Source: Nitrospira defluvii (lineage in GTDB: Bacteria > Nitrospirota > Nitrospiria > Nitrospirales > Nitrospiraceae). Taken from it: 64,000 bases of DNA. The notes beneath the pieces are model-generated. The model worked only from the letters and a program-made list of their open reading frames with translations, had not been told where the DNA came from and did not search any database. The stretch lies in assembly GCA_000196815.1 (NCBI GenBank), contig FP929003.1:2255501-2319500 (forward strand), written 5' to 3'. The position numbers were made by a program, and so were the translations under genes. Positions 15,393-36,290 of this stretch are shown in pieces. Position 1 is the stretch's first letter. Each line of letters begins with the position of its first letter.

Positions 15393-15444
15393 CGGCATTG
15401 TTGTATTTCAGCAGCTACGTATTCATAGGGGAGCTTGTTCGATC

Positions 15445-16392: not shown

Positions 16393-16422
16393 TTCGGGAT
16401 CGGGTGGACGGGGAGGGCATCG

Positions 16423-18257: not shown

Positions 18258-19477
18258 TGGCTCATCAGACAGTCCCGGCGTCACAGATACCGAGCCGATT
18301 GGCATTTTCAGCGCGGGGTGAGCGCCTGATCGGGCAGGAGATGTTTCGGGTCATGGATCGAGCTCAAGCGCTGGAGCGGCAGGGGCACCGCATCTATCAC
18401 CTGGAACTCGGTAGTCCCCGCATGGCTCCGCCCGATGAGATCGTCGACGGCACCGTCCAGGCGCTTCGCGAGAAACAACTGGGATACGCGCCGATGGCCG
18501 GCGTGAAGGAATTACGCGTCGCCTTGGCGGCTCGATACACCTCGTTGACGGGCCAGGCGTTGACGGACTCCCAAGTCGTGATCAGCCCGGCGAATCTCCT
18601 GATTCACCAGTTTCTGGACATCACCTGCAACCCCGACGACCGCGTGGTGCTGTTCACGCCGGCGTTCCCCTCCTACTGGGCCGCTGCAGCGCATCAGGGA
18701 CTTCAGGTCACGCCGGTGCCGCTTTCTGAGCGCGATGGATTTCATCTGACCCGACAGGCTATCGATGACGCGCTGGCTGCCCAGCCAAGGGCGATCGTCG
18801 TCAACAATGCCAACAACCCAACGGGGGCCCTCTACGATCCGATGATCTTGCGCGCGCTTGCGGAGCGTTGTGAAGAGGCGGGGATCTGGCTGTTGAGCGA
18901 TGAAACCTACGCCGATCTGACCTTCGATGGCTCGTTCTGTACCCTCGCCTCGGCGCAAGCCGGATATGTCGTGGCGATGTCGTCCTTTTCAAAAGTATGC
19001 TCGATCCCGGGATTTCGCACCGGATATGCCTGCGCCCATGAGGCCGTGGCGGCAAAACTCGCGCTCTCTAATTCGACCCTCTATTCCTGTCTCCCCCTGT
19101 TCACTCAACTGGGTTGCCTCGCCGGCATGAAGGTGCTCGATACCTATGCGAGCGAGGTTCGAACACGGGGCGCCAGGCTGATCGGATCCTGCCACAATCG
19201 CATCAATCGATCCGGCATCCTGCATTGCCACAAGCCGGAGTCCGGATTCTATCTCTTTGTAGATATCGCGCGCACCGGGCTCGATGACCTGACCTTTTGC
19301 CGGCGACTGCTGGACGATCATCAGACGGCGGTCACCCCGGGACGTAGCTTCGGCGACTCCTATGCGTCGTTCATTCGCATTGCCGTGTGCGGGCAGGAAG
19401 AGGATGTGGACGAAGGTCTGTCTCGCACGATCGCCTTTGCGCAACAACTGGGAGGTTGCCGTGTCCAAGCCGCTTGA
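18257..19477 (+). CDS. class I/II (fold type I) PLP aminotransferase
   Basis: A 406-aa AspC-fold enzyme. Visible motifs: YAPMAGVKELRVALAARY, NNPTGALYD, the PLP phosphate region SDETYADLTF and the Schiff-base Lys246 in SSFSKVCSIPGFRTGYA. Class I enzymes act on amino and keto acids and rarely on nucleotide sugars, so in this island it may make an acyl or amino-acid substituent for a glycan, possibly with the ThDP enzyme two genes on. That role is inference. Starts at the TAATG overlap; its last 17 bases overlap the next gene. Confidence 0.8.
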   Translation: MAHQTVPASQIPSRLAFSARGERLIGQEMFRVMDRAQALERQGHRIYHLELGSPRMAPPDEIVDGTVQALREKQLGYAPMAGVKELRVALAARYTSLTGQALTDSQVVISPANLLIHQFLDITCNPDDRVVLFTPAFPSYWAAAAHQGLQVTPVPLSERDGFHLTRQAIDDALAAQPRAIVVNNANNPTGALYDPMILRALAERCEEAGIWLLSDETYADLTFDGSFCTLASAQAGYVVAMSSFSKVCSIPGFRTGYACAHEAVAAKLALSNSTLYSCLPLFTQLGCLAGMKVLDTYASEVRTRGARLIGSCHNRINRSGILHCHKPESGFYLFVDIARTGLDDLTFCRRLLDDHQTAVTPGRSFGDSYASFIRIAVCGQEEDVDEGLSRTIAFAQQLGGCRVQAA

Positions 19478-20969
19478 CGTGTTGCTGGTCACTCCGCCCA
19501 GCCGGGTGCAGGTCTATCAGGACCTGAGCCGCGATCTGGCCGCCATTGAACCGCCGGTCTGGTCGGGTTTGATCGCGACGTTCTTGCGACAACACAGCTG
19601 CTCCGTTGCCATTCTGGATGCCGAGGCAGAAGGGTTGAACCACCAGCAGACGGCGGAGCGGATCGCCGTCATCGCGCCGAGACTGGCAGTCTTCGTGATC
19701 TATGGGCAGCAGCCATCCGCCTCCACACAATGTATGCCCGCCGGCCGGACGGTGTGCGAAATCCTGAATACGCTGGCCGATATTCCCACGCTCGTCATGG
19801 GCACGCACCCCTCGGCACTGCCGAAACGGACCCTGCTGGAAGAGCCGTATACCTATGTCTGCCAGGGAGAAGGCCCGTCCACGATTCTCGGCCTGGTGAT
19901 TGCCTTACGCGCGCCGCAACATTCGCTTCGCGAAGTTCCCGGCCTCTGGCACATGGAGAAGGGGGAGCCGGTCGGGAATGCCCCGGCCCAACTGCTGACG
20001 AATCTGGATCGCGAGTTGCCGGGGCAGGCCTGGGATCTCCTCGATATGACCCGGTATCGCGCGCACAACTGGCACTGTTTTGGGAACCTGGAGGCGCGCA
20101 CACCGTATGCGTCGCTCCAGACCAGTTTGGGCTGCCCGTTTACCTGCTCTTTCTGCTGCATCAATTCGCCGTTTGGAACTCCGATGTTACGGACCTGGAG
20201 CCCGGACAACGTCATTGGTCAGATCGACCGGCTGGTCAGGGACTATGGCATCAGCAATATCAAGATCCCCGATGAAATGTTCGTGCTGAATCGACGGCAT
20301 GTGATCGGCATCTGCGATCGCATCATCGAGCGGGGGTACCGCCTCAATATCTGGGCCTACGCCCGTGTGGACACGGTCCAGGATGAAGTGCTGGCGAAAC
20401 TCGCGCGGGCGGGATTTACCTGGCTGGGGCTCGGCATCGAATCCGGAAGCCAGCATGTCCGCGACGGCGTCGAAAAAGGCCGCTTCGGCGAACGGGACAT
20501 TGTGGCCACGGTCGACAAGATCCGCTCGTACGGCATTCATGTGGCGGCCAACTATATCTTCGGCCTGCCCGACGACACGATGGAGAGCATGCGCGCCACG
20601 TTGGACCTGGCCCTCACGCTCAATACGGAGTGGGCCAACTTCTACTGTGCAATGGCCTACCCCGGTTCACCGCTCTACACACAGGCGAAGCAGAAACAGT
20701 GGGCTTTGCCCGATGACCAGGGGGGCCCCGGATGGATCGGGTACGCACAGCATGCCTACGACTGCCGTCCCTTACCGACCGACCATCTCACGGCGACGCA
20801 GGTCCTGGCATTCCGCGATCGGGCCTTTATCGAGTATTTCACGCATCCGCAGTATCTGAACATGTTGCACCGCACGTTCGGACCGCACGTCGCTACACAC
20901 GTGGCAGACATGTGCCGACGCCAGGTCCGGCGCCGGTATCAGGATGAGGCCACGAATGCAGCTGCCTAG
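19461..20969 (+). CDS. B12-binding radical SAM protein
   Basis: The product has 502 aa. An N-terminal cobalamin-binding-like Rossmann domain (KPLDVLLVTPPSR, residues 1-140) precedes a radical SAM domain with Cys225, Cys229 and Cys232 in CPFTCSFCC, followed by LGLGIESGSQHVRDGVEKG and NYIFGLPDDTMESMRATLD. Class B members typically methylate unactivated carbon or phosphorus or rearrange carbon skeletons using methylcobalamin. The GTG start (SD GGGAGGT) lies inside the end of the aminotransferase gene. Likely a glycan- or precursor-modifying methylase; the substrate cannot be read from sequence. Confidence 0.87.
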   Translation: MSKPLDVLLVTPPSRVQVYQDLSRDLAAIEPPVWSGLIATFLRQHSCSVAILDAEAEGLNHQQTAERIAVIAPRLAVFVIYGQQPSASTQCMPAGRTVCEILNTLADIPTLVMGTHPSALPKRTLLEEPYTYVCQGEGPSTILGLVIALRAPQHSLREVPGLWHMEKGEPVGNAPAQLLTNLDRELPGQAWDLLDMTRYRAHNWHCFGNLEARTPYASLQTSLGCPFTCSFCCINSPFGTPMLRTWSPDNVIGQIDRLVRDYGISNIKIPDEMFVLNRRHVIGICDRIIERGYRLNIWAYARVDTVQDEVLAKLARAGFTWLGLGIESGSQHVRDGVEKGRFGERDIVATVDKIRSYGIHVAANYIFGLPDDTMESMRATLDLALTLNTEWANFYCAMAYPGSPLYTQAKQKQWALPDDQGGPGWIGYAQHAYDCRPLPTDHLTATQVLAFRDRAFIEYFTHPQYLNMLHRTFGPHVATHVADMCRRQVRRRYQDEATNAAA

Positions 20970-20994
20970 GGGGCAAGAGGGGAAAGGAACGGTC

Positions 20995-22833
20995 ATGATC
21001 AAGGTTGCGGATTTCATCATCCATACATTAGCGGAACGGGGAATCGACAAGATGTTTGTGGTCTATGGCGCCGCAAACGGCGACCTCATCGATGCGTTCA
21101 CCCGCACCGCCGCCACGGAATACGTCGCCGTCATGCATGAGCAGGCCGGCGGGTTCGCCGCCGAGGCCTATGCCAAGGTGAAGGGTGTCCCCGGTGTGGC
21201 CATCGCCACGAGCGGACCGGGCGGGATGAATCTTCTCACGGCAATGGGTAACTGCTTTTACGACTCCGTGCCCTGCGTGTTTCTGACCGGCCAGATCAAC
21301 TCCCGGTTTCTCCGGCCCGATCCTGCCATTCGCCAGATCGGATTCCAGGAGACCGACATCGTCGCCATGGCGGCTCCGGTCACAAAGTACGCCAAGATGA
21401 TCGTCAAGCCTGAAGACGTGCGATATGAATTGGAGAAGGCGCTGTGGCTTTGTCAGGAAGGACGTCCGGGACCGGTGCTGCTGGATATTCCCCTTGATGT
21501 CCAAAAGACACTGATCGATGCCAAGCAGCTCATCGGGTTTGAGCCTCCCGCCGCCGCAGGCTTCGACCTTACCGTGGTCGATGAGCAGATCGCCCGTTTC
21601 ATCGCAGAACTCCAACATGCTGAACGACCGGTCATTCTCGTCGGCGGCGGCGCGCGGCTCGCGAATGCCCAGGATGATGTACGCGCCTTGGGGCGGCGGC
21701 TGAACGTGCCCTGCTTTCCGACCTGGAACGCCTTGGACGTGATCAGCTCGGACTACGAAAATTACGGCGGACGGGTCGGGACGTACGGGGGAGCCGGCCG
21801 CAATTTCGGCATTCAAAACAGTGACTTGCTGCTGTCGATCGGCAGCCGTATCTCCGGCCGCATCACCGGTGGCAACGTCCAAAGCTTTGCGCGCCAGGCC
21901 AAGAAGTATCTCGTCGAAATTGACCCGGCGATGGTGCAGCGGAAGTTTCAGCAGGTGCCGTTCGATGTGAACATTCTCTGCGATGCGAAGGTGTTCACTC
22001 AGCGCCTCTTGATCGCCCTGGATCGTCGCAGTAAACCGTTGCCTGATTATTCGGGGTGGACAGAACGGGTAATGGAGTGGAAACGCCAGTACGACCCGGT
22101 CCGGCCCGAGTTCTTCGACCAGCGAGAGCGGGTCCACCCCTATGCCTTCATGCGTCGCCTTTCCGAAAAAATGGGTGCCACGGATATTCTGGTCGGGGAC
22201 TGCGGCGGGAATATCGTCGTCAGCAACCATGCGTTTGAAACGAAGTATGGACAGAGAAACCTGACCAACAACGGCAACTCGCCGATGGGGTTCTCGTTTG
22301 CCGGAGCGATGGGCGCCTGGTTTGCCGCGCCGAGCCGTCAAGTCGTCTGCACGATCGGTGACGGCGGATTCAACATGAATCCGCAGGAACTGCAGACATT
22401 CATCAATTACGCCGTGAAGGTGAAGACCTTCATTCTCAATAACCACATCTATGGAATCACCAAGGCCTATCAAGAGACGAACTTTCAGGGCCGCGCAGAA
22501 GCCTGCGGACCGAAAGGGTACAACCCGCCGGATTTTCTCAAGATCGTGCACGCCTACGGCATCAAGACGGTCGCCATCGCGAACCATGCCGAGATGGACG
22601 CCAAGATCGACGAGGTGCTTCGGTTCGACGGCCCCGTGGTCTGTGATGTGGACATGCATGAATTCCACACCTACGAGCCAAGAATCTTCGGATGGAAGAC
22701 GCCGATTGAAGACATGTATCCCTATCTGCCTCGTGAAGAATTCCGCGCCAACATGGTCATCGAGCCGGCCGAAGGGTGGATGAACCCGGAATACCCAGAC
22801 GTCGTTCGCCGGAACGATCGGGCACAGCCGTAA
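20995..22833 (+). CDS. thiamine-diphosphate enzyme, acetolactate-synthase/YerE-like
   Basis: A 612-aa ThDP enzyme. The catalytic Glu49 is in MHEQAGGFAAEAYAKVKG. The central domain has the AHAS-type TYGGAGRNFGIQNSDLLLSIGS and the ThDP motif begins GDGGFNMN at residue 455 and runs to the NNHIYG end. No separate branched-chain amino-acid genes accompany it. Within a sugar cluster the nearest known parallel is YerE, which adds a two-carbon unit to a 3,6-dideoxy-4-keto sugar, exactly the kind of product a ColD-like enzyme gives. A conventional carboligase or decarboxylase is the alternative. ATG at 20995 after GGAAAGGA. Confidence 0.82.
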   Translation: MIKVADFIIHTLAERGIDKMFVVYGAANGDLIDAFTRTAATEYVAVMHEQAGGFAAEAYAKVKGVPGVAIATSGPGGMNLLTAMGNCFYDSVPCVFLTGQINSRFLRPDPAIRQIGFQETDIVAMAAPVTKYAKMIVKPEDVRYELEKALWLCQEGRPGPVLLDIPLDVQKTLIDAKQLIGFEPPAAAGFDLTVVDEQIARFIAELQHAERPVILVGGGARLANAQDDVRALGRRLNVPCFPTWNALDVISSDYENYGGRVGTYGGAGRNFGIQNSDLLLSIGSRISGRITGGNVQSFARQAKKYLVEIDPAMVQRKFQQVPFDVNILCDAKVFTQRLLIALDRRSKPLPDYSGWTERVMEWKRQYDPVRPEFFDQRERVHPYAFMRRLSEKMGATDILVGDCGGNIVVSNHAFETKYGQRNLTNNGNSPMGFSFAGAMGAWFAAPSRQVVCTIGDGGFNMNPQELQTFINYAVKVKTFILNNHIYGITKAYQETNFQGRAEACGPKGYNPPDFLKIVHAYGIKTVAIANHAEMDAKIDEVLRFDGPVVCDVDMHEFHTYEPRIFGWKTPIEDMYPYLPREEFRANMVIEPAEGWMNPEYPDVVRRNDRAQP

Positions 22834-22906
22834 CGGGTGGACCGTCAAAGTGCGCTGGGTCTGTTGAGTCGATGATGGATCAGTGGTCGCTCACGTGAGG
22901 TGATGT

Positions 22907-24532
22907 ATGAACGTCTTGTTGTTGTATCCCACATGGACCGGGGCCTACGGACTGTTCGGCCATTTCGCCCGCCGGAATTCGACCTGGCCGCCGTTGAACC
23001 TCGCGCTGTTGGCCGCGATTGCGGAACGCCACGGCCACAACGTCACGATCCTCGACGGCGAATCCGAGCAGGTTTCGCTGGACGACATGGTGCAGCGGGC
23101 GGTCGCGATGAAGCCGGATCTCATCGGCTTCACGGCGACGAGCCCGTTTTTTCACCTGAGCAAAACCGTGGCCGAAGGCATCAAGCGCCTGGCTCCGGAC
23201 ATTCCCATCGCCGTGGGGGGCCCTCATATCACCATCATGAAGGAGCAGGCGCTGTTGAGCTGCTTCGACTATGCCTTCATCGGGGAGGCGGAGGAGTCCT
23301 GGCCCCAATTCCTGAACGCCTGTGAACAGGGCAAGGACCTGTCGTCGGTCGCCGGGATCATCTATCGGCGTGACGCTGAGGTGGTCTCCACCGGTCAGCC
23401 GGAGGACATCACGAATCTCGACGCCTTGCCGATTCCTGCGCGACATCGACTGCCGATGTCCCGGTACAAACTCGGTACGCTACGCGGCCGTCTGCCGTTC
23501 ACATCGATTCAGACCATGCGCGGCTGTCCCTGGAAATGTATCTTCTGCGCCTCCGAAGCGTTGAAAACCACTGAGATGCGCGTGCGCTCTCCGCGATCGG
23601 TCGTGAATGAAATGAAGCAGGTCGTGGAGACATTCGGCACCCGGCATTTTTACATCGTCGACGATGTCATGACGCTCTGGAAGGACCACATTCTGGAGAT
23701 CTGCGACTTGATCGACCGGGAAGGCCTGCAGATCACATTCGAAGGCAGTACCAGGGCAAACCTCGTCGAGGAAGACGTAATCGCCCGGTTGGTTAAGAGC
23801 GGCCTCATCCGCCTGTCGTTCGGGCTCGAAACGGTCGACCCCGAAATACGGAAGACGATGAAAAAGCAGGTCCCGCTGGAGCACTACGTGAAAGCGAACG
23901 GCATCTGCAACAAATACGGAGTCGAGGCGTTGAACTCCGTGATGATCGGATTGCCGGGAGAGACCCGAGAGACGGTCCGGGCAACGTTGAAATTCTTGCG
24001 ACAAGCCAGAGAAGTCAAACAAGCGAATTTTGCCATCGCCGTGCCCTATCCGGGGACCGAGTTCCACAAGCTGGCGGTGAACGGCGAGAAGGGCGTGAAG
24101 CTGATGACCCAGGACTTCTCCGAATATCGCCGCTATGGATCGGCGGTCACTACGGTCGGGGAACTGACGCCGCATGACCTGATCGACCTGCAGAACGAAG
24201 GATTTGTGAGTATCTACTCCGCCCCCTGGCGCTGGATACCCATGCTGCAAAAACACGGGGTCATCGGGGGCTCGCTCATGCTGGTCCGCGTGGCACGCCT
24301 TCTTTCTAAAAAGCTGTTCGCGGCTTCGGGGCGGGCATCGCAGGAGCAGCTCATCAGCCTGGGAGACGGGGCCTTCAGCCGTATACAGGAACCCGCCCTG
24401 AGCGCGCAGCCTGCGGGGGCCGGTCCGACCGGATCGAGCAGCACGGGTCCGTTGTTGACCATCGCCTCCGCATCACGAGCGGCAGCCGCGCCGGCTGGTC
24501 ATTTCGGCCATCCCACGAACCCGAACGGCTAA
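22907..24532 (+). CDS. B12-binding radical SAM protein (second copy)
   Basis: The product has 541 aa. The N-terminal B12-binding domain (MNVLLLYPTWTGAYGLFG, then VGGPHITIMKEQAL) leads to a radical SAM core with Cys207, Cys211 and Cys214 in RGCPWKCIFC, then FGLETVDPEIRKTMKK and LNSVMIGLPGETRETV. The architecture matches the P-methylase/hopanoid-C-methylase-like class B group. It is not a close duplicate of the copy at 19461. The last ~60 residues are low-complexity Ala/Gly/Ser/Pro. GAGGTGAT precedes the ATG. It may modify a sugar or its acyl decoration. Confidence 0.86.
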   Translation: MNVLLLYPTWTGAYGLFGHFARRNSTWPPLNLALLAAIAERHGHNVTILDGESEQVSLDDMVQRAVAMKPDLIGFTATSPFFHLSKTVAEGIKRLAPDIPIAVGGPHITIMKEQALLSCFDYAFIGEAEESWPQFLNACEQGKDLSSVAGIIYRRDAEVVSTGQPEDITNLDALPIPARHRLPMSRYKLGTLRGRLPFTSIQTMRGCPWKCIFCASEALKTTEMRVRSPRSVVNEMKQVVETFGTRHFYIVDDVMTLWKDHILEICDLIDREGLQITFEGSTRANLVEEDVIARLVKSGLIRLSFGLETVDPEIRKTMKKQVPLEHYVKANGICNKYGVEALNSVMIGLPGETRETVRATLKFLRQAREVKQANFAIAVPYPGTEFHKLAVNGEKGVKLMTQDFSEYRRYGSAVTTVGELTPHDLIDLQNEGFVSIYSAPWRWIPMLQKHGVIGGSLMLVRVARLLSKKLFAASGRASQEQLISLGDGAFSRIQEPALSAQPAGAGPTGSSSTGPLLTIASASRAAAAPAGHFGHPTNPNG

Positions 24533-24561: not shown

Positions 24562-27500
24562 ATGGCACCACGCTCAACCAAGCATGCGCTCCTCTTGCAG
24601 TTGGAGTTTCCAACGTGGAAGCAAGCTCGCGCTTGGACGTATCCAGCGCATTTTGCGATTCAAGAAGGACTTGAGGCAAATGGGTGTGAGTGCCTGACGA
24701 TTCCGGCTATCCCGCCATCGTCCTCGCCGGCCGACGCGAACTGGTTGCAGTATGCTGAGCGATTGTGTCGTGGTAAGCAGTTCGACCTAGTGTGGGTATG
24801 GTTAGTCCATTCTGAGTATGATCGTCGGCTTCTCGAATGGATTGCGTCGCTGGCTCCGGTTCGTGTGGGGTTCGTGATGGAATCGCTCTCATATACTCAA
24901 GATGAGCAGCGCTTTTCACCGATCACGGCCAAGCGGGCGGCGGTGGCCGAAGCCCAACTCGCATATATGACTCATGCGGTTGTGGTTGATGAGGTCGATG
25001 CCGCTTCAATCAATGCGAAGGGGAAAATACCCGCGTTCTGGTGCCCTGCATTTGTTCCGGAACGCTTTATCGATCCTCCGGACGAGCATCCAGTACATGG
25101 CGTGGCGGCGTTTCACGGCACACCCTACGGCCATCGCCAAGCATGGCTCGATCATCCCGGGCTGAATGGTGTGTTGGTTTCCCCGAGCTCTTCGCCGTCT
25201 ACGATTCAGCAGCTCTTTGATCAGTTGCAGTTGACGGCGGCTGAGCTGTTAGCGTGCGACCCTGATGCCGTAGAGGCCCTATTGCCAAAATATGTATCCG
25301 ATCTGCAACGCGTGCGATTGGCTGAATTTACCCAATGGATGAAGAACCTGAGGACATGGGCGTGCATCGTCAATTTACCTGGGTTTCAAAAGGGATATGG
25401 CGGCCGTGTATATGAGGCGATGGCAGCGGGAAGGCCGGTCATTTCCTGGGATATTACGAATCGTCCCCGTAATCGCGCCCTGTTTGAAGAAGGCAAAGAC
25501 ATATTACTCTTTCCTAAAGATGATCCGGGAACGTTGGCTCAGCGCATCGTATCGGTACTCGGGCAGAAAGAGTACGCGTACGAGTTGGCCCGGAACGCGA
25601 ATCGAAAAATGCTCTGCCATCATACGGCTGAAAAGCGCATACAACAGATTCTCGCATGGATTGCCACGGGTTTCGTCCCGTCATTTTCAGACAACGAGCA
25701 ATCGACCATCCAGGGAGAACCAACGTTCGCTGACTTGCAACTCAGCGCTGTATTGAAGGTACGTCGTCACATAGACGTCGCGACCGCAAACGAGCCGAGT
25801 AGTGAGCCGACTCTGTTGGGTAACGGACGACTCCCGAACACGTCTCACGTATTGACCAGGAACCACTCTTCAGAAGTGCGGCATTCTGAGATCGACGGTG
25901 AGAGGCCCCGAGCTGTCCCAAAGGTTTCGATCATCATTCCTTGTTATCAGCAAGCGCATTTTCTCGCGGATGCCGTGACAAGCGTCATCGCGCAATCTTA
26001 TGGCGATTGGGAATGCTTGATCGTCGACGATGGAAGTCCTGACGACACGGCAGCAGTTGCGGCTCAACTGATCGAACAATATTCGACTTATCGTATTCGC
26101 CTCATTCGTAAGACGAACGGCGGTCTCGCGGATGCAAGAAATGCCGGAATCCGAGCCGCTCGAGGACCATATCTGCTTCCGCTCGATGCCGACGATCGAT
26201 TGCATCCCGACTACCTGAACGAAACTGTGTCAATTCTCGATCATCATGCGGAAATTGCCGTCGTCTATGTAGACGAACAGAACTTCGGCGAAGCGTCGCA
26301 TATCCATCGCAAGGATAGCTCCACATTAGCGCGACTGCTTCAGAGTAATGTGCACGATTATTGTTCTCTCTATCGACGTACGGTGTGGGAGACGGTCGGC
26401 GGATATTCCCCGGCCATGTATCTTGGCGCAGAAGATTGGAGTTTCTGGCTCTCTGCAGCCAAGAAGGGGTTCCGCTCTCACCATCTGGGGAAGCCGTTGT
26501 TCTTGTATCGCAACCGTCCCGGGACCATGGTTGCGCAAGTACACGCCAATCAGGAGCTCGTGAAGGCTCACTTGGTGATGCATCATCCAAATGTATTCAG
26601 TAAGGACCTACAGATCTCTGCGAGGGCACGTCTTTCACAATTGAACCCGGCGCACACCGAGAAGCTGGCACGAGTCTGTGCACTCCATCCTACGAATGAA
26701 ATTCTGCAACTATTTCAGCAACTCGCCAAGATATCGACGGCCGTCCCGAGCTCTCTACTAAAAGAACAACAAGGAGTGCTGATGCATAGTCAAACGTCCG
26801 GTATGGATGAGCACGCACATGAAGCGGCCTATTATGCCGAGTTGTTCATCAAGAATCCGGAATGGTCGACTCCTGAGCCGAACAATGATGAAACGGCTCG
26901 GTGGGTCAAGATTGCTGCCTACCTGGAACACATTGTAAGACTGCGTGTTCGAAAAGGGGAGACCTCGCGTCTCCGGATTCTGGATCTCGGCTGCGGCCGA
27001 GGGTGGTTGACGAACATGGCATCAGCATATGGTGATTGCACAGGCGTCGAACCGGTTGCCGCTGTGGTGACACATGGTCGAAAACTCTATCCTCATTTGC
27101 GGTTCCATGCTGGAGATGCGGAGACGCTGTTGCAACGCGCCGATTTCCAGCCGTTTGATGTGGTGCTCAGCTCGGAGGTTATCGAGCATGTGCCTCGACC
27201 CGGTCAGGCTCAATTCGTAGCCATGATTCGCCGCTTGGTGAAACCTGGCGGGCATGTTATTGTCACGACGCCGCGAGCGGAAGTCTTCGATCTGTGGAAG
27301 AAGCTTGCACCGCCAAATCAGCCGATTGAAGATTGGCTAACGGAAGCTGACCTCAAGCGTCTGTTCATCGGCAATCAGTTCGTTCGTCTCGGCAATGATC
27401 GCGTCAGCATTGAGTTGCCAAGTTTCAGATTCCTTCCTGCGCCCACTTCTGCCGAGTGTTACCAGCGAAAACTCATTCCCTTTTATCAAGTGTGGGCATG

Positions 27501-29964
27501 GCAAGCGCCGGATGAACAGGGGCAGGCTATCTCGGCCGTTCCCTTCGATGTCCGACCACTGGTCAGCGTGATCATTCCAACCTACAACCGCCCTGATCGT
27601 CTTCGAGAAGCGATTCAGAGTGTGCTTGCACAGACGTGCCAGGACTTCGAGATCGTCGTCGTCAATGACGGCGGGCAGGATGTCACCTCCGTCATCGACG
27701 GCTTCCATGCCGGTGCGCGGCTTATAGCTATTCAACATGCACACAATTGCGGTCTGGCCGCTGCACGCAATTCGGGGCTGCGAGCCGCGCAGGGTACATA
27801 CATCGCCTACCTCGACGATGATGATCGTTATTGTAGCGATCACCTAGAGACGTTGCTCGCGGCATTGCAGCGAGGCGAGCACAAAATCGCCTATACAGAT
27901 GCGTGGAGAATCCATGAAAGTCGGCAAGGGGAGCACTACGTGGCGACCGGACGAGACCTCCCGTATTCACGTGATTTTGATCCGCGAGAGCTGTTGATTC
28001 GCAATTATATTCCGGTGCTGACAGTCATGCATGAACGTAGTTGCCTCGATCAAGGAGGATATTTTGATGAATCCCTCTTTGCTCACGAAGACTGGGATCT
28101 CTGGATTCGTATGGCGCTTCATTATCCCTTTTGCCATATCAAGAAGACTACGGCCGAGTTCACGTGGCGTAGGGATGGCTCTTCGATGAGCAGCAGCATG
28201 AGTGATACCTATCGACGGACGATGGACCTGATTTATCACAAATATCGACCCTGCGCGGAGCGGCTGTCTGGCGTGTTGGAAGCTCAGAAGAAGAGTCTTT
28301 TGGCGTTTGAGGGTTCGATCACCAAGAAGACTCCTGCCGCTCGTGCCTATGACTGCTCGATCGTCATCCCAGTCTGGAACAACGCTGCGTTAACTGAGCA
28401 GTGTCTGAGAGCATTGGCCGAGGTAACGGATGGCGTGAGTTATGAAGTCGTGGTGGTCGACAATGGCTCGACGGATGGGGTGGAGACATTTCTTCAGAGC
28501 CTGGGCGGCGATGTCAAGGTCATCAGAAATGAGCAGAATCTCGGATTTTCTAAGGCCTGCAATCAAGGCGCACACGCTGCACGCGGTGAATTCCTGGTGT
28601 TTCTCAACAACGACACGATTCCACTCAAGGGATGGCTGTCGGCCATGGTCGAGGAGGTCCGCGCCTATTCCGATGTGGCGGTGGTGGGAAGCAAACTGTT
28701 GTACGAGGACGGCACGATTCAACATGCCGGAGTTGCGTTTTCGAGAGAGTGGTTTATGCCCTACCATCTTTATCGCGGCGGTAACGCCCAAGCGGCCTGT
28801 GTATCCCACCGGCGTGAGCTCCAATGTCTCACGGCCGCCTGCATGCTTGTCCGTCGAAACGTCTTCGAACAGGTCGGGGGGTTCGATGAAGGCTACCGCA
28901 ACGGATTTGAAGACGTCGACCTCTGCCTGAAGATCAGGAAACTGCAGTGGAAAATCGTCTACCAACCGAAGAGTGTGCTGTATCACTTGGAAAGTAAAAC
29001 CCCGGGACGGAAGACCCATGATCTAGAGAACGGTCGACGACTCCAGGAGCGTTGGGGCGCCTGTTGGTGGTTGGCTGACGAAGACCTCCTGCATTTTGAA
29101 GACGGCTATGCGATCCACAGCTACGTCCAAGACGACCTGCTCCGCTACAAGTTAGAACTGATTGCGGATTCGAAGACCAGCACGCAGCGAGCGATGCTGG
29201 CAGATACTCAACGTGCGGCGTTGCGTCAGGAGAACGACGTAGTCGCCGCGTACCTACGACGCGTGCAGGAATGGCCAGCCGATGTCTGGATTTTGCGCTG
29301 GGGGGGCTTACTCTGTAGTGGAGTTGGGCAACCGAAACTGGCGATCCCCTTCTGGGAACGCATCCTGACCTTGGAGGAAGATTCCTACGCCAGGGTCGGA
29401 TTGGCGAAGCACGCGTTGGAGATCGGGAAGTTCGACGACGCTGACCGTCATTTGACGGCATTGCTCGAACATGAACCATCACACGGGGAAGGCTGGCTCT
29501 TGCGCGGGATCGTCGCGATGCAACGGCTGGCCTATGCGGAAGCAGAACGGGCATTTGAGGAAGCCAAACGCGGGGGAGCCGATCAGCGAAAAGCGGCGAT
29601 GGGGCTGGTGATGGCCGCGATCGGCAACAACCGGCCGGAGAGAGCCTGGTCGGAAATTACCGCAGTCTGCGCGCAGCAACCGGACGACGAAGAGTGCATG
29701 CACTGGATGCTCAAATGCGGCACGATGCTCCAAAGCTGGGATGTGCTCGCATCACGCCTCTCCTCATTTGTCGCCCGCAATCCGGGCAATATTGCTATGC
29801 GATTTGCCCTCGCCGGAGTATTGTTGAGAGCAGGACGTCGAGCGGATGCGCAGCGGGAATATGACTGGCTGCGTGCCATGGCGCCGACCTTCGAAGGCAT
29901 GGACGAGTTGGCAAGACAACTGGCCGAATCCGAACGCCATCTGGTGCCGAACCATGCCGCATGA
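24562..29964 (+). CDS. 1800-aa fusion: glycosyltransferase, GT2, methyltransferase, GT2, GT2, TPR
   Basis: One uninterrupted frame. Domains: a group-1/CgeB-like glycosyltransferase (~1-370, with GYGGRVYEAMAAGRPVISWD); GT2 no.1 (~454-690, KVSIIIPCYQQAHFL, DADD); a SAM methyltransferase (~804-950, RILDLGCGRGWL); GT2 no.2 (~999-1230, VSVIIPTYNRPDRL, YLDDDD); GT2 no.3 (~1263-1500, SIVIPVWNN, rhamnosyltransferase-like FLNNDT); and TPR-like repeats (~1560-1800). Such fusions assemble and cap oligosaccharides. Proximity to fliC suggests flagellin glycosylation, with TPRs docking substrate or partners. An internal in-frame ATG at 26782 follows AAGGAG. GC is lower in the first two thirds. The SD of the main start is weak. 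Confidence 0.9.
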   Translation: MAPRSTKHALLLQLEFPTWKQARAWTYPAHFAIQEGLEANGCECLTIPAIPPSSSPADANWLQYAERLCRGKQFDLVWVWLVHSEYDRRLLEWIASLAPVRVGFVMESLSYTQDEQRFSPITAKRAAVAEAQLAYMTHAVVVDEVDAASINAKGKIPAFWCPAFVPERFIDPPDEHPVHGVAAFHGTPYGHRQAWLDHPGLNGVLVSPSSSPSTIQQLFDQLQLTAAELLACDPDAVEALLPKYVSDLQRVRLAEFTQWMKNLRTWACIVNLPGFQKGYGGRVYEAMAAGRPVISWDITNRPRNRALFEEGKDILLFPKDDPGTLAQRIVSVLGQKEYAYELARNANRKMLCHHTAEKRIQQILAWIATGFVPSFSDNEQSTIQGEPTFADLQLSAVLKVRRHIDVATANEPSSEPTLLGNGRLPNTSHVLTRNHSSEVRHSEIDGERPRAVPKVSIIIPCYQQAHFLADAVTSVIAQSYGDWECLIVDDGSPDDTAAVAAQLIEQYSTYRIRLIRKTNGGLADARNAGIRAARGPYLLPLDADDRLHPDYLNETVSILDHHAEIAVVYVDEQNFGEASHIHRKDSSTLARLLQSNVHDYCSLYRRTVWETVGGYSPAMYLGAEDWSFWLSAAKKGFRSHHLGKPLFLYRNRPGTMVAQVHANQELVKAHLVMHHPNVFSKDLQISARARLSQLNPAHTEKLARVCALHPTNEILQLFQQLAKISTAVPSSLLKEQQGVLMHSQTSGMDEHAHEAAYYAELFIKNPEWSTPEPNNDETARWVKIAAYLEHIVRLRVRKGETSRLRILDLGCGRGWLTNMASAYGDCTGVEPVAAVVTHGRKLYPHLRFHAGDAETLLQRADFQPFDVVLSSEVIEHVPRPGQAQFVAMIRRLVKPGGHVIVTTPRAEVFDLWKKLAPPNQPIEDWLTEADLKRLFIGNQFVRLGNDRVSIELPSFRFLPAPTSAECYQRKLIPFYQVWAWQAPDEQGQAISAVPFDVRPLVSVIIPTYNRPDRLREAIQSVLAQTCQDFEIVVVNDGGQDVTSVIDGFHAGARLIAIQHAHNCGLAAARNSGLRAAQGTYIAYLDDDDRYCSDHLETLLAALQRGEHKIAYTDAWRIHESRQGEHYVATGRDLPYSRDFDPRELLIRNYIPVLTVMHERSCLDQGGYFDESLFAHEDWDLWIRMALHYPFCHIKKTTAEFTWRRDGSSMSSSMSDTYRRTMDLIYHKYRPCAERLSGVLEAQKKSLLAFEGSITKKTPAARAYDCSIVIPVWNNAALTEQCLRALAEVTDGVSYEVVVVDNGSTDGVETFLQSLGGDVKVIRNEQNLGFSKACNQGAHAARGEFLVFLNNDTIPLKGWLSAMVEEVRAYSDVAVVGSKLLYEDGTIQHAGVAFSREWFMPYHLYRGGNAQAACVSHRRELQCLTAACMLVRRNVFEQVGGFDEGYRNGFEDVDLCLKIRKLQWKIVYQPKSVLYHLESKTPGRKTHDLENGRRLQERWGACWWLADEDLLHFEDGYAIHSYVQDDLLRYKLELIADSKTSTQRAMLADTQRAALRQENDVVAAYLRRVQEWPADVWILRWGGLLCSGVGQPKLAIPFWERILTLEEDSYARVGLAKHALEIGKFDDADRHLTALLEHEPSHGEGWLLRGIVAMQRLAYAEAERAFEEAKRGGADQRKAAMGLVMAAIGNNRPERAWSEITAVCAQQPDDEECMHWMLKCGTMLQSWDVLASRLSSFVARNPGNIAMRFALAGVLLRAGRRADAQREYDWLRAMAPTFEGMDELARQLAESERHLVPNHAA

Positions 29965-31150
29965 GCCCTCACCGGAATGCCGCGACCTGGTGATTCAACT
30001 GGCGCGCTTGGGCGACTTGGTTCAAACGCTTCCCGCCATCGAGGCGTTGCAGGAAGTGTATCCGGAACGAACACTGGATGTCCTGTGTGCCGCTCCCTTG
30101 ACGAGCGTCCTCTCCGGAGCCCGTCGTCTGGGCCGTGTCATTCCCTGGGACGGGGCACAATGGCATGCCTGGACCCATCAGTGGAAAGAGAACCCACGTC
30201 AGACCTTGCAGGCCATGCAGGCCTACGTCGCGTCTCTCGGCAACATGGCGTACGAGCATGTGTATGCGTTGAATCGGCATGCACGGAGCTGTCTCATGAC
30301 GCAGCTCTTTACAGGCCCTTTCTCGCGTGAGGACCAGCAGGACCGCACAGAGGCGCGCGCACGTCCATGGACCGAGTATCTCCGGCATATCGCGACACGA
30401 CGCGGGAACAATCGGGTTCATTTGGCTGATGCCTGGTGCGGCATGAGCGGAGTCAAGCCACGTGGCCGGGCGCCGCGCTTCCAGCCTCCGGCCGTCGAGC
30501 TGCCTGATGACCTCGCTTCCATCGGTGAGCGGCAGGGGCTCTGGGTTGCGCTGGTGACCGGGGCGGGCGAGGCGGATCGTTGCATCCCGGCGGCCACATG
30601 GGGCCGGTGGACCCAAGAGTTTCTGACACGGACAGACGAAGGACAGGTCGTGCTGATCGGAAGCGGGCGCGAGCGTGAAACCGGACAGGCCATTCTCGAA
30701 TCGATTCCCGCCTTGCTCCAAGGACGTGTCTGGGACGCGACCGGCCGCACAAGCATCCCTCAGTTGATGAAGCTCCTCCATGCATGCCGCTGGGTGATCG
30801 GTGCCGATACCGGCCCGCTCCATCTGGGCACGTTGATGGGCAGTCGGGCCATCGGACTCTATTTTTCTCATGCCCGGGTGCACGAAACCGGCCCCTACGG
30901 TGAAGGGCATTGGGTGTATCAACATGCGACGCAAGCCCAGCCGGAGTGCTGGCCTATCATGGAAAGTATCGCGTTGATCTGCGATGACCAACGTCGTGCC
31001 GCCTCCGATTGGATCCTCTGGAGGAATCGCATGGACCAATGGGGGACGAGTTTTGAGGACGGATCCGGACAAGAGGAGGGCGTCGAGGACGCCCGCGCGA
31101 CTGTCTGGCGCGCGCTCTCTCCAACCTTGTGCGAATCGGTTGCCGCATGA
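29954..31150 (+). CDS. glycosyltransferase family 9 (heptosyltransferase-like)
   Basis: A 398-aa GT-B protein. The N-terminus DLVIQLARLGDLVQTLPAIE is the GT9 hallmark (acceptor-side loop), and the donor-side block CRWVIGADTGPLHLGTLMGS carries the conserved DTGxxH. GT9 enzymes usually transfer ADP- or GDP-heptose. With a heptose kinase and nucleotidyltransferase in the same cluster, heptosylation of a flagellar or surface glycan is the reasonable guess. It overlaps the giant fusion gene by 11 bases and the next gene by four (ATGA). Confidence 0.87.
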   Translation: MPHEPSPECRDLVIQLARLGDLVQTLPAIEALQEVYPERTLDVLCAAPLTSVLSGARRLGRVIPWDGAQWHAWTHQWKENPRQTLQAMQAYVASLGNMAYEHVYALNRHARSCLMTQLFTGPFSREDQQDRTEARARPWTEYLRHIATRRGNNRVHLADAWCGMSGVKPRGRAPRFQPPAVELPDDLASIGERQGLWVALVTGAGEADRCIPAATWGRWTQEFLTRTDEGQVVLIGSGRERETGQAILESIPALLQGRVWDATGRTSIPQLMKLLHACRWVIGADTGPLHLGTLMGSRAIGLYFSHARVHETGPYGEGHWVYQHATQAQPECWPIMESIALICDDQRRAASDWILWRNRMDQWGTSFEDGSGQEEGVEDARATVWRALSPTLCESVAA

Positions 31151-32964
31151 CGCTCTTCAAGGACAACATTGCCTGGTTGGCCGCAAGGGATACATCCCTC
31201 GCCGCGGCCGTGACGACTTCGGCCGGCGGTGTCCTTACAATCGAGCCGGCACGGAGCGGCGTCCCTTCGGCTCGGCGATCCGGGCGGTGGATTCACAGCG
31301 CCTATGATCCGATCCGCGAAGCGGAATCATGGGCCGACACCCATGCGCCCGCCTGTCGGGCAGGCGAGACCGTCGTCGTGGCCGGCGTCGGGCTGCTGTA
31401 CCACGTTGCGGCTCTTCGGAAACGAGTGGCGCCGGAGATTGCGGTTGCGGTGCTGATCTCCGACCTCGACGAATTCCATGACGCGCTCGTCGCGCGGCCC
31501 CTCGCATCATGGGCCGAGCACATCCTCTGGCTCTCCGGTACGCCGGTCGAGATCGCTGATCGGCTGAGCAAGACGGGCCGCCCCCTGCGCTGTCTGTCCT
31601 ATGCTCCGGCCACACACAGTGATGCGAACTTCCGCAGCACGTTCGAGCAGGCCTTGCGGCGCGGAGTAGCGCGCCAGACCGGCGGGCAGCTCACGATCGC
31701 ACTGGTAGGGCCCATTTACGGCGGTTCGCTGCCGATTGCACGATATGTGAGACGGGCACTGGAAACGATCGGGCACAAGGTGCAATGGATCGATCACAGT
31801 GTACATGCGTCAAGTTACGAGGCCATGGGGGCGCTGAAAGATGCGCGCAATCGCCAACTGATGCAAGGTCGCTTGGCCGAAGTGTTGAGCCAATGGACCC
31901 TGGCCTCCCTGGCCGAGTCACCTCCCGACCTCGTCTTGTCCCTGGCTCAGGCGCCGTTGACCTTGCCGGTGCTCGAACATCTCCGGAGGAAGAAGCTGCT
32001 GACCGCCATGTGGTTCGTCGAGAACTATCGCCACCTGACCTATTGGCAACAGATGGCACCGGGGTATGACTACTGGTTCGTGTTCCAGCAGGGGGCCTGT
32101 CTCGATGCGTTCCGGCAGGCGGGTGCGCGGCATGTCGGCTTTCTGCCCATGGCGGCAGACCCTGAGTTGCATCGCCCGATGGATCTGTCTGATGAAGAAC
32201 GGCGCATCTATGGTGCGGATGTCTCCTTCGTCGGCGCGGGATATGCCAATCGCCGGCGCCTGTTCCCGGCACTGCTACGCCGACCCTGGTCGTTCAAACT
32301 CTGGGGAAATGAGTGGGACGGGGCCGACGAGCTTGACTCGGTGCTGCAGCTCAACGGCGCGCGAATCGATACCGACACCTGCATGAAGGTGTTCAACGCC
32401 ACAGCGATCAATTTAAATGTCCATTCCACGACCGGCGCGGGCCTCGACCCGCAAGCCGATTTCGTCAATCCACGGACCTTTGAACTGGCAGCCTGCGGCG
32501 CGTTTCAGCTGGTCGATTCCCGCTCCCAGTTGCCGGACTTTTTCACCGACCGGGAGATGCTCTCGTTCGGGAACTTCGATGAAGTCCCCGGACTCGTGGA
32601 TCGATGGCTCGGAGATCCTGCCGCTCGACAGGCTATGGCCGCTGCAGCCCGCGCACGTGTCCTGGGTGCGCATACCTATGTGCATCGAATGCGGGACTTG
32701 TTGGGACATATCGGATTGTCTCAGCCCGATCGAGTCGGAGCCGTGCTGCGGGGAGACCGGCAGCAGGAATCCCTGCTGTCGCGTTGCGCCGGGGATGTTC
32801 CGCTGGAATCGTTGCTCAAGGACTTTCCTGCCGGACAGCGGGTCGAGCTGAAGGATGTCGCCGCACGAATCCGCAGCAAAGGCTCGACCGCGACGCTCAA
32901 GCGGGAAGAATTGATGGTGTTGATGTTGGATGAATACCGGAGCGAGACACGCGATCTGTTATGA
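31147..32964 (+). CDS. CgeB-like glycosyltransferase
   Basis: The product has 605 aa. The C-terminal half shows the CgeB/'spore maturation' glycosyltransferase pattern: GFLPMAADPELHRPMDL, SFVGAGYANRRRLFPALL, LWGNEWDG and the nucleotide-sugar-binding FVNPRTFELAACGAFQLVDS. The middle (TIALVGPIYGGSLPIARYV) begins the N-terminal Rossmann half. About 150 residues ahead of that are unassigned. CgeB-like genes are common in flagellin or O-antigen loci. ATGA overlaps on both sides place it in a tightly coupled GT9-CgeB-GT9 trio. Confidence 0.84.
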   Translation: MTLFKDNIAWLAARDTSLAAAVTTSAGGVLTIEPARSGVPSARRSGRWIHSAYDPIREAESWADTHAPACRAGETVVVAGVGLLYHVAALRKRVAPEIAVAVLISDLDEFHDALVARPLASWAEHILWLSGTPVEIADRLSKTGRPLRCLSYAPATHSDANFRSTFEQALRRGVARQTGGQLTIALVGPIYGGSLPIARYVRRALETIGHKVQWIDHSVHASSYEAMGALKDARNRQLMQGRLAEVLSQWTLASLAESPPDLVLSLAQAPLTLPVLEHLRRKKLLTAMWFVENYRHLTYWQQMAPGYDYWFVFQQGACLDAFRQAGARHVGFLPMAADPELHRPMDLSDEERRIYGADVSFVGAGYANRRRLFPALLRRPWSFKLWGNEWDGADELDSVLQLNGARIDTDTCMKVFNATAINLNVHSTTGAGLDPQADFVNPRTFELAACGAFQLVDSRSQLPDFFTDREMLSFGNFDEVPGLVDRWLGDPAARQAMAAAARARVLGAHTYVHRMRDLLGHIGLSQPDRVGAVLRGDRQQESLLSRCAGDVPLESLLKDFPAGQRVELKDVAARIRSKGSTATLKREELMVLMLDEYRSETRDLL

Positions 32965-34637
32965 ATAAGCAAGTGCTTCTCATCAATATCACCCGGATGG
33001 GCGATCTCGTCCAAATGGGCACCCTGCTGCAGCGCCTCCAGCATGAGTGGCCGGGGGTCGCCGTCGATCTGGTCGTGGATGAACGGTTTGCTCCGATCGC
33101 GAAACTCCTGCCTCATCTCCGGCACATCATCGATTATGACTTTCATCGCCTGGTCGACGAGAGTCGGGCGCAAACGAAGGATGTCGTCACGCTCTACCGT
33201 GAGATGACTGACTGGGCAGCGCCGTTAATCGAGGCCGGCTACGACCGCGTCGTCAATTTGACCTTCAATCGCCGGAGCGGACTGCTGGCCTCCTACGTCG
33301 GGGCCAAAGAAATTCGAGGCATCGCGTCTCCGAAAGACGGGGACGTGGTCATCCATAACCCGTGGATGGCCTATTTGACCGATGTGCACAGTCAACGGCA
33401 GTTCAATCACTTCAATCTGGTGGATATCTACGCCTTGGGCGGAAGCGGGACCGGACCGTTTGCGCCCTTGTCGCTCGACATTCCTCCGGGCACGGCGCAA
33501 TGGGCGCGTGACTTTTTTGAACCGCACGGCGGGCAACAGATGCCTTGGATGGCGGTGCAAGTCGGGGCCAGCGATCCGATGAAGGCCTGGCGGCCGGAAC
33601 TCTTCGGTCAGACCCTGGCGGTGCTGAGTCGGCAGACACGGGTCGGGTATGTCTTCATCGGGACGGAGAGCGAGCGGAAGGCGATTGAAACCGCCCAGAT
33701 GGCCTATCGGAAAGCCGGCGGATCCGCGCCTCTCTGCGACGCGGTGGGGCGGACGACACTGCCTCAGCTCGCTGCGGTGCTGGCCCAGTGCCGACTCCTG
33801 CTGACCAACGACACCGGCCCGATGCACCTCGCAGTCGGAGCGGGCATTCCGGTGATCGATCTCTCGGTCGGGCATGTCGACTTTCGCGAGACGGGCCCCT
33901 ATGGACCGGGGCATTGGATCGTTCAGCCGGATATGGGCTGCGCGCCTTGTGGATTTGATCAGGTCTGTCTGCACCACGCCTGTAAAGACCGGCTGGTGCC
34001 GGATCAAATTGCCTCGCTGTGCCTGCATGTACTCACTGGAGCCGCATTTCCGGCAACATTGACCGGTATCAAGATCTTTCGCTCCCGCGTGGATGAGGAC
34101 GGGCTGGGCGGTGCCGATATTTGCGCGGGACGGGAAGATCCGACGATCGGCTGGTATGGCCGCTTCTGGCGTCGGTTCTGGTTCGAACAATTTACGGGCC
34201 GTCCCAGTCTGGTCCCCATGGTTTCGGAGCCTCCGCCCGACTGGAAGGAGAGTATGGCGATCCTGGATCGGGTTCTCCCTCTCGCAGCCGGGTTGGTCTC
34301 AAGAGCGAAGGAAATGGTGCGATTAACCGCCAGACGGCCGTTGCCGGTCAGTGCCTTGCAGCAGATGCAACTCGAGGAGAACAGGGCGCGTCAGACCATT
34401 GTGGCGCTCAGTCTCCAATTCCCGGCCACCGCATCCCTGGCCGTAGCCCTGGTGCGGGATACCCACAATGACGACAGCCACGAACTGACCGGCATGGCAG
34501 AAGCCCGTCTTGCAACCTATCGACGCTGGCAGAACCGGCTGCATGCGGTCGCGGCCGGTTTCCGTGCTTTCAAGACACCGCAAGGTTTCGCACCGCGTGG
34601 AACCAGGATGGCTCTTCCCATGGCGCCTATCGGATAG
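32961..34637 (+). CDS. glycosyltransferase family 9 with C-terminal extension
   Basis: The product has 558 aa. The GT9 domain (~1-370) opens VLLINITRMGDLVQMGTLLQ and has the donor block CRLLLTNDTGPMHLAVGAGI, followed by a Cys-rich stretch (DMGCAPCGFDQVCLHHACKD) as in several heptosyltransferases. The last ~190 residues match nothing I recognise; they are helical and may be a docking domain. Start overlaps the CgeB-like gene by ATGA. It is the last gene of the coupled glycosyltransferase run, 45 bases before an unknown gene and 0.8 kb before fliC. Confidence 0.86.
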   Translation: MNKQVLLINITRMGDLVQMGTLLQRLQHEWPGVAVDLVVDERFAPIAKLLPHLRHIIDYDFHRLVDESRAQTKDVVTLYREMTDWAAPLIEAGYDRVVNLTFNRRSGLLASYVGAKEIRGIASPKDGDVVIHNPWMAYLTDVHSQRQFNHFNLVDIYALGGSGTGPFAPLSLDIPPGTAQWARDFFEPHGGQQMPWMAVQVGASDPMKAWRPELFGQTLAVLSRQTRVGYVFIGTESERKAIETAQMAYRKAGGSAPLCDAVGRTTLPQLAAVLAQCRLLLTNDTGPMHLAVGAGIPVIDLSVGHVDFRETGPYGPGHWIVQPDMGCAPCGFDQVCLHHACKDRLVPDQIASLCLHVLTGAAFPATLTGIKIFRSRVDEDGLGGADICAGREDPTIGWYGRFWRRFWFEQFTGRPSLVPMVSEPPPDWKESMAILDRVLPLAAGLVSRAKEMVRLTARRPLPVSALQQMQLEENRARQTIVALSLQFPATASLAVALVRDTHNDDSHELTGMAEARLATYRRWQNRLHAVAAGFRAFKTPQGFAPRGTRMALPMAPIG

Positions 34638-34682: not shown

Positions 34683-35225
34683 ATGCATATCACGCTCGAC
34701 GGCGAACAGTGGCAACTGCCGGATGACACGTCTCTCATGAACGCCCTGGCGTTTCTCAGCGACAAAGCCCATGCCCAACATCGGATTGTGACGTCGTTGA
34801 CGGTCGGCGGGAAGAGCATCAACGATAGGGATTTGGATCCGGCCTTTTTGAATCAACGGGGACAAGATGTGGGCGAGGTGGCCGGACGATCTCAATCGCT
34901 GCACGCCATCATCACAGATGCGAAACAGGCCATCGATCGGTTTGCCGCGCAGTTGCGAGCCGATGGCCTGGGCCTGCTCGGCCCGCTACGTTCGGGAACC
35001 GGGCAGGTGGGAACCATCGATTCCTGGTTGGGCCGTCTTGCAGACTATACGGAAATGTTGGAGGCCGGACAAACGCAGGGTGTGGCAGGACTCTCATCCG
35101 CTCCTCTCCTTCCATGGATACAGGAACTCCTGGGTGCGCGAACCTTCGCCGATCCCATCCGTGTCGCGGATCTGTTGGAGTATGAATTATTACCCCTGCT
35201 CGCTGAGTCCAGTCAGGCTGCTTAG
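34683..35225 (+). CDS. protein of unknown function upstream of fliC
   Basis: A 180-aa protein I do not recognise. The first 65 residues look like a small beta-rich module (MHITLDGEQWQLPDDTSLMN, then IVTSLTVGGKSINDRDLDP). The rest is helical (LHAIITDAKQAIDRFAAQLR). No signal peptide or membrane segment is visible. A clean AAGGAG lies 7 bases before the ATG, and codon use resembles its neighbours, so it is a real gene. It probably belongs to the end of the glycosyltransferase operon; a role in flagellin modification or export is conjecture. Confidence 0.7.
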   Translation: MHITLDGEQWQLPDDTSLMNALAFLSDKAHAQHRIVTSLTVGGKSINDRDLDPAFLNQRGQDVGEVAGRSQSLHAIITDAKQAIDRFAAQLRADGLGLLGPLRSGTGQVGTIDSWLGRLADYTEMLEAGQTQGVAGLSSAPLLPWIQELLGARTFADPIRVADLLEYELLPLLAESSQAA

Positions 35226-35462: not shown

Positions 35463-36290
35463 ATGGCATTAGTCGTCAATACCAACGTTTCATCTCTGGC
35501 AGCCCAGCGTAACCTGTCGATCAACCAAGCCCAATTGGGGCGTTCAGTTGAACGATTGTCCTCGGGCTTGCGAATCACCCGTGCGGCGGATGACGCCGCG
35601 GGATTGGGCGTGTCCGAAACATTGCGGGCGCAGATCCGCAGTATCAATCAGGCCAATCGAAACGCCGGTGACGGCATCAGCTTGACTCAGGTCGCCGACG
35701 GCGCCGCGGCCACGGTCGGCAGCTTGTTGTCTCGTATGCGTGAGCTGGCGACTCAGTCTGCCAGCGGGACGCTCGGGGCGACCGAGCGTTCCTACCTGGA
35801 CCAGGAGTTTGTGGCGTTACGTTCGGAAATCGATCGAATTGCAACAACGACCGAATATAACGGTCAGCCGCTCCTGAGCGGAAGCAGCAACACTTTTGAA
35901 GTCTTCATTGGTTTCAAGAGTGGATCGGGCAATTCGTTGAATGTGGCATTGGCCGATCTCGACGTCGCGGCGGTCGGATTGACCGGCGCGAGTGTGTCGA
36001 CGGCAGCAGCCGCACAGACCATGCTTTCCAATATCGACAGCGCGATCAGCGCGGTGGCAACCGCCCGCGCGAATTATGGATCGATTCAAAGCCGGTTCGA
36101 AGTCGCGATCCAGAATTTGACGGTCACGGCGGAGAACTTTACCGCGGCGGAATCTCGGATTCGAGACGCGGATATTGCCCAAGAGACATCTGTGTTCACG
36201 AAGAACCAGATCCTCACCCAATCCGGCATCGCAATTTTGGCGCAAGCCAATTCGTTGCCACAGCAAGCCTTGGCGCTGCTGCGAGGATAA
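35463..36290 (+). CDS. fliC: flagellin FliC
   Basis: A 275-aa flagellin with only the conserved D0/D1 domains. The N-terminus is MALVVNTNVSSLAAQRNLSI and GLRITRAADDAAGLGVSE; the D1 region has RMRELATQSASGTLG; the C-terminal half is ESRIRDADIAQETSVFTKNQ, then LPQQALALLRG. The central surface region is very short (about residues 140-190) and Ser/Thr-rich, giving O-glycosylation sites for the neighbouring island. The 35436 in-frame start is rejected because it would bury the AGGAGGAAG at 35450. It has its own sigma-28 promoter and is followed by a strong hairpin. Confidence 0.97.
   Translation: MALVVNTNVSSLAAQRNLSINQAQLGRSVERLSSGLRITRAADDAAGLGVSETLRAQIRSINQANRNAGDGISLTQVADGAAATVGSLLSRMRELATQSASGTLGATERSYLDQEFVALRSEIDRIATTTEYNGQPLLSGSSNTFEVFIGFKSGSGNSLNVALADLDVAAVGLTGASVSTAAAAQTMLSNIDSAISAVATARANYGSIQSRFEVAIQNLTVTAENFTAAESRIRDADIAQETSVFTKNQILTQSGIAILAQANSLPQQALALLRG

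Follow-up and report, generated by a model that had tools for sequence, protein, structure and literature searches.

The analysed DNA, referred to as the window, comprises 64,000 nucleotides of the Nitrospira defluvii genome, and carries on its forward strand a giant gene (24562-29964) whose 1800 codons contain no stop, together with sugar-biosynthesis genes on its upstream side and three further glycosyltransferase (GT) genes and a short flagellin gene on its downstream side. The features are as follows, with amino acid (aa) numbers referring to the giant protein:

14199..24532, + strand, putative sugar-supply genes (predicted roles)
24562..29964, + strand, giant multi-module glycosyltransferase gene, 1800 aa in one open frame (Pfam, homologues, dN/dS)
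24574..25686, + strand, GT-B module with GT4-like fold, aa 5-375 (Pfam, AlphaFold2 pLDDT ~85, VIA-align Z 21.7)
25894..26661, + strand, GT2a module with DADD and ED motifs, aa 445-700 (Pfam and motifs, no AlphaFold2 fold)
26782..27516, + strand, SAM methyltransferase module, aa 741-985 (Pfam, VIA-align)
27535..28281, + strand, GT2b module with LDDDD and ED motifs, aa 992-1240 (Pfam, AlphaFold2, VIA-align)
28333..29151, + strand, GT2c module with LNNDT and ED motifs, near-invariant in the family, aa 1258-1530 (AlphaFold2, VIA-align)
29188..29946, + strand, C-terminal TPR superhelix, invariant in the family, aa 1543-1795 (Pfam TPR 1589-1713, AlphaFold2)
29954..31150, + strand, GT9-family glycosyltransferase (GT9a), its start overlapping the stop of the giant gene
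31147..32964, + strand, DUF3880 / Glyco_trans_1_2 glycosyltransferase
32961..34637, + strand, GT9-family glycosyltransferase (GT9b)
34683..35225, + strand, conserved protein of 180 aa (u180) without a Pfam or NCBIfam match, between GT9b and fliC
35463..36290, + strand, short flagellin of 275 aa, the probable acceptor (predicted role)

Pfam placed the modules in the order GT-B, GT2, methyltransferase, GT2, GT2, TPR, which together with the motifs and AlphaFold2 models bore out the preliminary description of four glycosyltransferases, a methyltransferase and TPRs in one chain. The Pfam group-1 GT match (aa 244-365) covers the C-terminal half of the GT-B module, whose best VIA-align match was sucrose-phosphate synthase 6kih (Z 21.7 over 318 residues, 3.9 A), with PimA at Z 21.5. 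The three GT2 modules have distinct and intact motifs, as had been described (DADD, LDDDD, FLNNDT), each followed by an ED catalytic-base motif: GT2a (Pfam GT2 456-601) has DADD at 542 and ED at 624, GT2b (1002-1226) has DDDD at 1085 and ED at 1176, and GT2c (1265-1498) has LNNDT at 1348 and ED at 1450. The methyltransferase likewise lies where it had been placed, between the first and second GT2 (Pfam 800-938, DLGCG motif at 808), and its model matched 4htf at Z 18.7.

Modelling of aa 985-1800 with AlphaFold2 from 45 sequences gave a mean pLDDT of 90.6 and showed two GT-A domains and a helical-repeat tail, while in aa 1-984 the GT-B (1-375) and the methyltransferase were modelled and GT2a, where the alignment is gapped, was left without a model; statements on GT2a are based on Pfam and motifs. 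GT2b matched AvpGT (VIA-align Z 27.8) and GT2c matched polypeptide GalNAc-transferase 2 (Z 23.2, 241 residues, 3.1 A). The structural match tables of the C-terminal model were filled by GT2-like domains and contained neither GmaR nor O-GlcNAc transferase (OGT). No membrane segment was found in the giant protein, the highest 19-residue hydropathy mean being 1.34. Single domains matched many NCBIfam GT2 equivalogs, none of them shown above its cut-off, so that donor and product cannot be named; only the domain model TIGR04440 passed. Matches in PHROGs were limited to GtrB-like, generic GT and methyltransferase families.

The genome is assembled as one contig of 4,317,083 bases, and two genomes of the same genus carry full-length homologues of the giant at 83-84% aa identity with frames free of stops. 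Against these two homologues, every module had a dN/dS of 0.06-0.17 and the two (short) linkers tested had 0.47-1.16, values which indicate that each module is under purifying selection. The uninterrupted single frame claimed in the preliminary description is thereby upheld by 1800 open codons, unbroken homologues and purifying selection throughout the modules. Compared with L038 and L039, synonymous divergence was 0.84-1.29 in GT2c and TPR (28333-29946) and 0.43-0.62 in the front modules, and this excess in the tail suggests that the window's own giant is itself a mosaic.

From GT9a onwards the downstream GT genes form a chain of overlapping frames, and u180 separates GT9b from fliC in nearly all loci with a giant. 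The flagellin gene is followed by a FlaG-like protein (assigned by position and sequence), FliD and FliS (by position). No attachment sites could be singled out among the conserved Ser/Thr residues of the flagellin. The upstream genes encode a DegT aminotransferase, an epimerase, an HddA-like kinase, an HddC-like nucleotidyltransferase, a class I/II aminotransferase, a B12-radical SAM protein, an acetolactate-synthase-like (ALS-like) TPP enzyme and a second B12-radical SAM protein, and look like a supply set for at least one unusual sugar. The last two adjoin each other (20989-24532, + strand): the best solved relative of the TPP enzyme is 8rph, and that of the second B12-radical SAM protein is AprD4 (6fd2, 1.4e-26), a sugar diol-dehydratase; the pair hints at a branched or deoxy sugar. 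The GC content is 54-57% over the giant and ~58-64% in the genes on both sides. No transporter, flippase, polymerase or ligase was found among the neighbours scanned (~14-36 kb of the window). GT and sugar-biosynthesis genes adjoin the flagellin gene, the arrangement of a flagellin glycosylation island, and judged by its gene content the locus is a flagellin glycosylation locus, with the glycan presumably carried on flagellin.

Homologues were compared in 40 genome regions and 80 named loci (GT2c-TPR profile), with some DNA occurring in both sets, and the named relatives were overwhelmingly Nitrospira and Nitrospirales. Across ~100 relatives, mostly Nitrospirales, the C-terminal GT2-TPR and the GT9-DUF3880-GT9-fliC neighbourhood were nearly invariant: the giant was present in all 40 regions and ended in GT2c-TPR in 39, and the order giant-GT9-DUF3880-GT9-u180-FliC-FlaG-FliD-FliS was found in nearly all loci with enough contig flank. 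At L077 a GT-B precedes the TPR in place of GT2c, and the same replacement is probable in two related genomes detected only through their TPR, so GT2c is not indispensable. Beyond Nitrospirales, flagellar genes lie near the giant in other arrangements at L149 and L155 (FliC), L150 (FliD, FliS) and L154 (FliS). These four loci (Deltaproteobacteria, Polyangiaceae bins) also have relatives of DUF3880 and GT9b near the giant, with the genes arranged differently.

The front of the giant, on the other hand, is replaced wholesale among relatives, giving more than 20 architectures and proteins of up to 3496 aa, a rough count based on home-made HMMs that includes contig-truncated proteins and some loci shared between the two collections. 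Fronts include GTB-GT2-MT (the window type, MT being the methyltransferase), Methyltransf_24-GTB-MT, GTB-X-GTB4-MT, GTB-MT, radical SAM-GT2, GT8-FkbM and others. The giants of L067, L069, L088, L089, L090 and L100 have a radical SAM domain fused ahead of the glycosyltransferases, and the 3496-aa giant (L152:1163-11653) has five GT2, one methyltransferase and three GT2-TPR units, which appears to be tandem growth of the tail unit. The comparison of domain order in related genomes, proposed in the preliminary description, showed tail and downstream genes kept and fronts that differ widely.

Comparing sister species localised these differences, as flanking DNA is ~90-97% identical while the giant is unalignable or at 60-76%. 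The window's two nearest relatives by downstream genes are L050 and L046 (94-95% aa identity). Upstream DNA is mostly 88-96% identical to theirs, the giant front is unalignable, the rear is at 60-76% and downstream DNA is at ~90-97%, with identity switching at ~24.5 and 29.7 kb for L050 and at ~22.8 and 30.3 kb for L046. Shared modules are far more diverged than the flanks, which points clearly to replacement by a foreign allele and not to simple domain loss; the closest homologues of the window's giant are the two genomes at 83-84%, not these nearest relatives. The pairs L128/L142, L103/L107, L100/L115 and L041/L042 also differ in their fronts and are 84-94% identical over the rear and downstream genes. 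In L113/L140 an X-GTB4 block is present or absent in frame, between the GTB end (aa 375/377) and the pre-methyltransferase region (aa 1072/432). Breakpoints fall near the GT2c start in L100/L115 (860/888 vs 857/885) and near the methyltransferase start in L041/L042 (756/403 vs 775/422), and others lie off module edges, inside the TPR (L128/L142 and L050) or in GT9a.

Mapping 12 architecture classes onto a DUF3880 and GT9b tree of 67 distinct rows, with rare or truncated types left out, required at least 33 changes (the minimum possible being 11), a count that is indicative given a quick-method tree and tree genes that may recombine too. Architecture differed in 10 of the 24 closest pairs (>=90% identity). 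The locus is thus variable between close relatives through horizontal exchange, and these alignments indicate that recombination between related species swaps the front modules and leaves the GT2-TPR end in place.

The distribution of the giant was then set against flagellin size in 236 genomes of the order, 147 of which had a strong flagellin, either short (~275 aa; open frames of ~280-320 aa) or long (frames of 612-787 aa). Profile search found the giant in 127 of 131 short-flagellin genomes and in none of the 16 long-flagellin genomes (Fisher 5e-18, a p-value inflated by kinship among genomes). The four short-flagellin exceptions match the TPR at 2e-28 or better and have a DUF3880 partner that is 49-59% identical, while the 16 long-flagellin genomes have neither the TPR end nor the DUF3880 partner, save for weak paralogue-level matches in two. 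DUF3880 tracks short flagellin as well as the giant does. Within genus g10 (G055, G183-G208) the giant is present in 11 of 11 short-flagellin genomes and in 0 of 8 long-flagellin genomes (>600 aa), and because short and long forms alternate within one genus, the partition does not reflect only one deep split. The fliC gene and the assembler may travel together. That flagellin is the target, as suggested earlier, is well supported in an indirect manner by conserved synteny and this all-or-none match.

Among characterised systems, GmaR of Listeria monocytogenes is a cytoplasmic flagellin GlcNAc-transferase with a GT2 followed by TPRs (PMC9638930), and the giant also has a GT2 directly before its TPR; the GT2c profile matched the GmaR GT domain in PDB at 2.6e-6. 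GmaR differs in having 637 aa, one GT, no fused methyltransferase or further GTs, and a C-terminal antirepressor domain that binds MogR, where the giant's chain ends shortly after the TPR block. FlmG of Caulobacter crescentus is a cytoplasmic flagellin GT whose TPR binds flagellin and gives specificity (PMC7591256). It has 596 aa, an N-terminal TPR, a single GT-B and a pseudaminic acid donor; membership of the giant in the FlmG family was rejected, its TPR being C-terminal behind a GT2 instead of N-terminal before a GT-B. GT41/O-GlcNAc transferase membership was rejected as well, the GT41 model being absent among Pfam families at E <= 0.01, and the earlier analogy with acceptor docking by O-GlcNAc transferases did not hold up, since the TPR follows a GT2 as in GmaR. 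GmaR and FlmG are better parallels than O-GlcNAc transferase.

Flagellin glycosylation islands of Enterobacteriaceae and Geobacillus have GT and sugar genes beside fliC, are highly variable and horizontally exchanged, and in some cases contain GT-methyltransferase fusions (PMC4875605, PMC5109656). They vary by separate gene sets, whereas here it is mostly the front modules of one giant gene that vary, the GT2-TPR tail and the downstream GTs being fixed. WsaE of Geobacillus stearothermophilus is a soluble single-chain protein with a methyltransferase and two GT domains that caps a glycan (PMC2943079), but this S-layer glycan is lipid-linked and exported by an ABC transporter, and WsaE is smaller than the giant and has no TPR. 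A WsaE-type enzyme was discarded on account of the giant's internal, not N-terminal, methyltransferase and its four GTs and TPR, and a WsaE-type ABC-transporter cluster on account of the absence of transporter genes among the neighbours scanned. K4 chondroitin polymerase and heparosan synthase 2 (2z86, 8vh7) resemble the giant in having two GT-A domains per chain; unlike it, they are non-flagellar polymerases without TPR or methyltransferase.

The reading favoured here, with a probability of roughly 0.7, is that the giant is a soluble cytoplasmic modular assembler of a flagellin glycan, with GT2c-TPR at the acceptor-proximal end and the gene exchanged as a cassette in the manner of O-antigen genes. 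The TPR superhelix would hold unexported flagellin, GT2c-TPR would act at the acceptor-proximal end as in Listeria GmaR, the front GT modules would add distal sugars supplied by the upstream genes, and the methyltransferase would methylate a sugar, such that a methylated oligosaccharide would be assembled on flagellin in the cytoplasm before export. If front GTs add distal sugars, the front would decide which glycan is built, and cassette replacement would alter the flagellar surface as O-antigen cassettes alter LPS. I infer the acceptor role of flagellin, GT2c-TPR as the proximal unit, the number, identity and order of the sugars, the order of action and the methylation target from this arrangement. 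A programmed oligosaccharide bearing a methyl group is plausible, but domains and sugars need not correspond one to one, and the giant's operon contains three more GT genes.

The first sugar might equally well be attached by one of these invariant downstream GTs. The main rival is accordingly that GT9a, the DUF3880-GT or GT9b adds it and the giant only extends the glycan, its TPR docking those enzymes or glycosylated flagellin. The three positions are as conserved as GT2c-TPR, DUF3880 follows short flagellin equally well, and the TPR is retained where GT2c is replaced (L077). Set against this, GmaR shares the GT2-TPR arrangement and has flagellin itself as its substrate (PMC9638930), and the best structural matches of GT2c are polypeptide GalNAc-transferases, though the GT-A fold is widespread; extension alone is possible but rather doubtful. 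It is considerably less probable that the giant produces a surface polysaccharide, lipid-linked or free (O-antigen, EPS), and lies beside fliC incidentally. Its individual domains have close sequence relatives among polysaccharide enzymes, K4 chondroitin polymerase for example, and the S-layer glycan on which WsaE acts with its methyltransferase and two GTs is lipid-linked (PMC2943079), but the fliC synteny holds across genera, the giant is missing from 16 of 16 long-flagellin genomes, and the scanned neighbours (~14-36 kb) include no transporter, flippase, polymerase or ligase. The view that separate genes were joined into this long frame by an assembly or fusion artefact was rejected as wholly improbable, since only the frame's unusual size speaks for this, against a one-contig genome, unbroken frames in two relatives that match at 83-84% from end to end, unbroken giants across many independent assemblies, and dN/dS values pointing to purifying selection in all modules.

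The assembler reading may be taken further, to an assembly line whose fused modules determine the flagellar glycan by their kind and order, and in which GT2-TPR docks or loads, front swaps change the surface, and short flagellin and assembler are obligate partners, with the glycan replacing the outer domains of flagellin; this fuller version is tentative. As fronts change while the tail is mostly kept between relatives, the sugar coats of flagella probably differ between close relatives, and the glycan may substitute for the outer protein domains of long flagellins. A single-gene multi-module assembler with a fixed tail, block exchange across an order and a partition with short flagellin appears to be new; a search of openly licensed PMC papers turned up neither a prior description of such an assembler nor a relevant study of flagellin glycosylation in Nitrospira, and a description may exist elsewhere.

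Nitrospira and their kin include major nitrite oxidisers and complete ammonia oxidisers, and little is known of their surfaces and phage interactions. Flagellar glycan loci are usually separate gene sets, which makes the assignment of genes to sugars hard. At this single locus, a natural module-swap experiment has been repeated dozens of times, while the probable acceptor and the flanks hardly changed. Comparing the flagellin glycans of sister species that differ in their fronts would yield a direct module-to-sugar code and parts that can be reused in glycoengineering, and the near-perfect match with short flagellin makes it testable whether sugars can replace the variable outer domains of flagellin.
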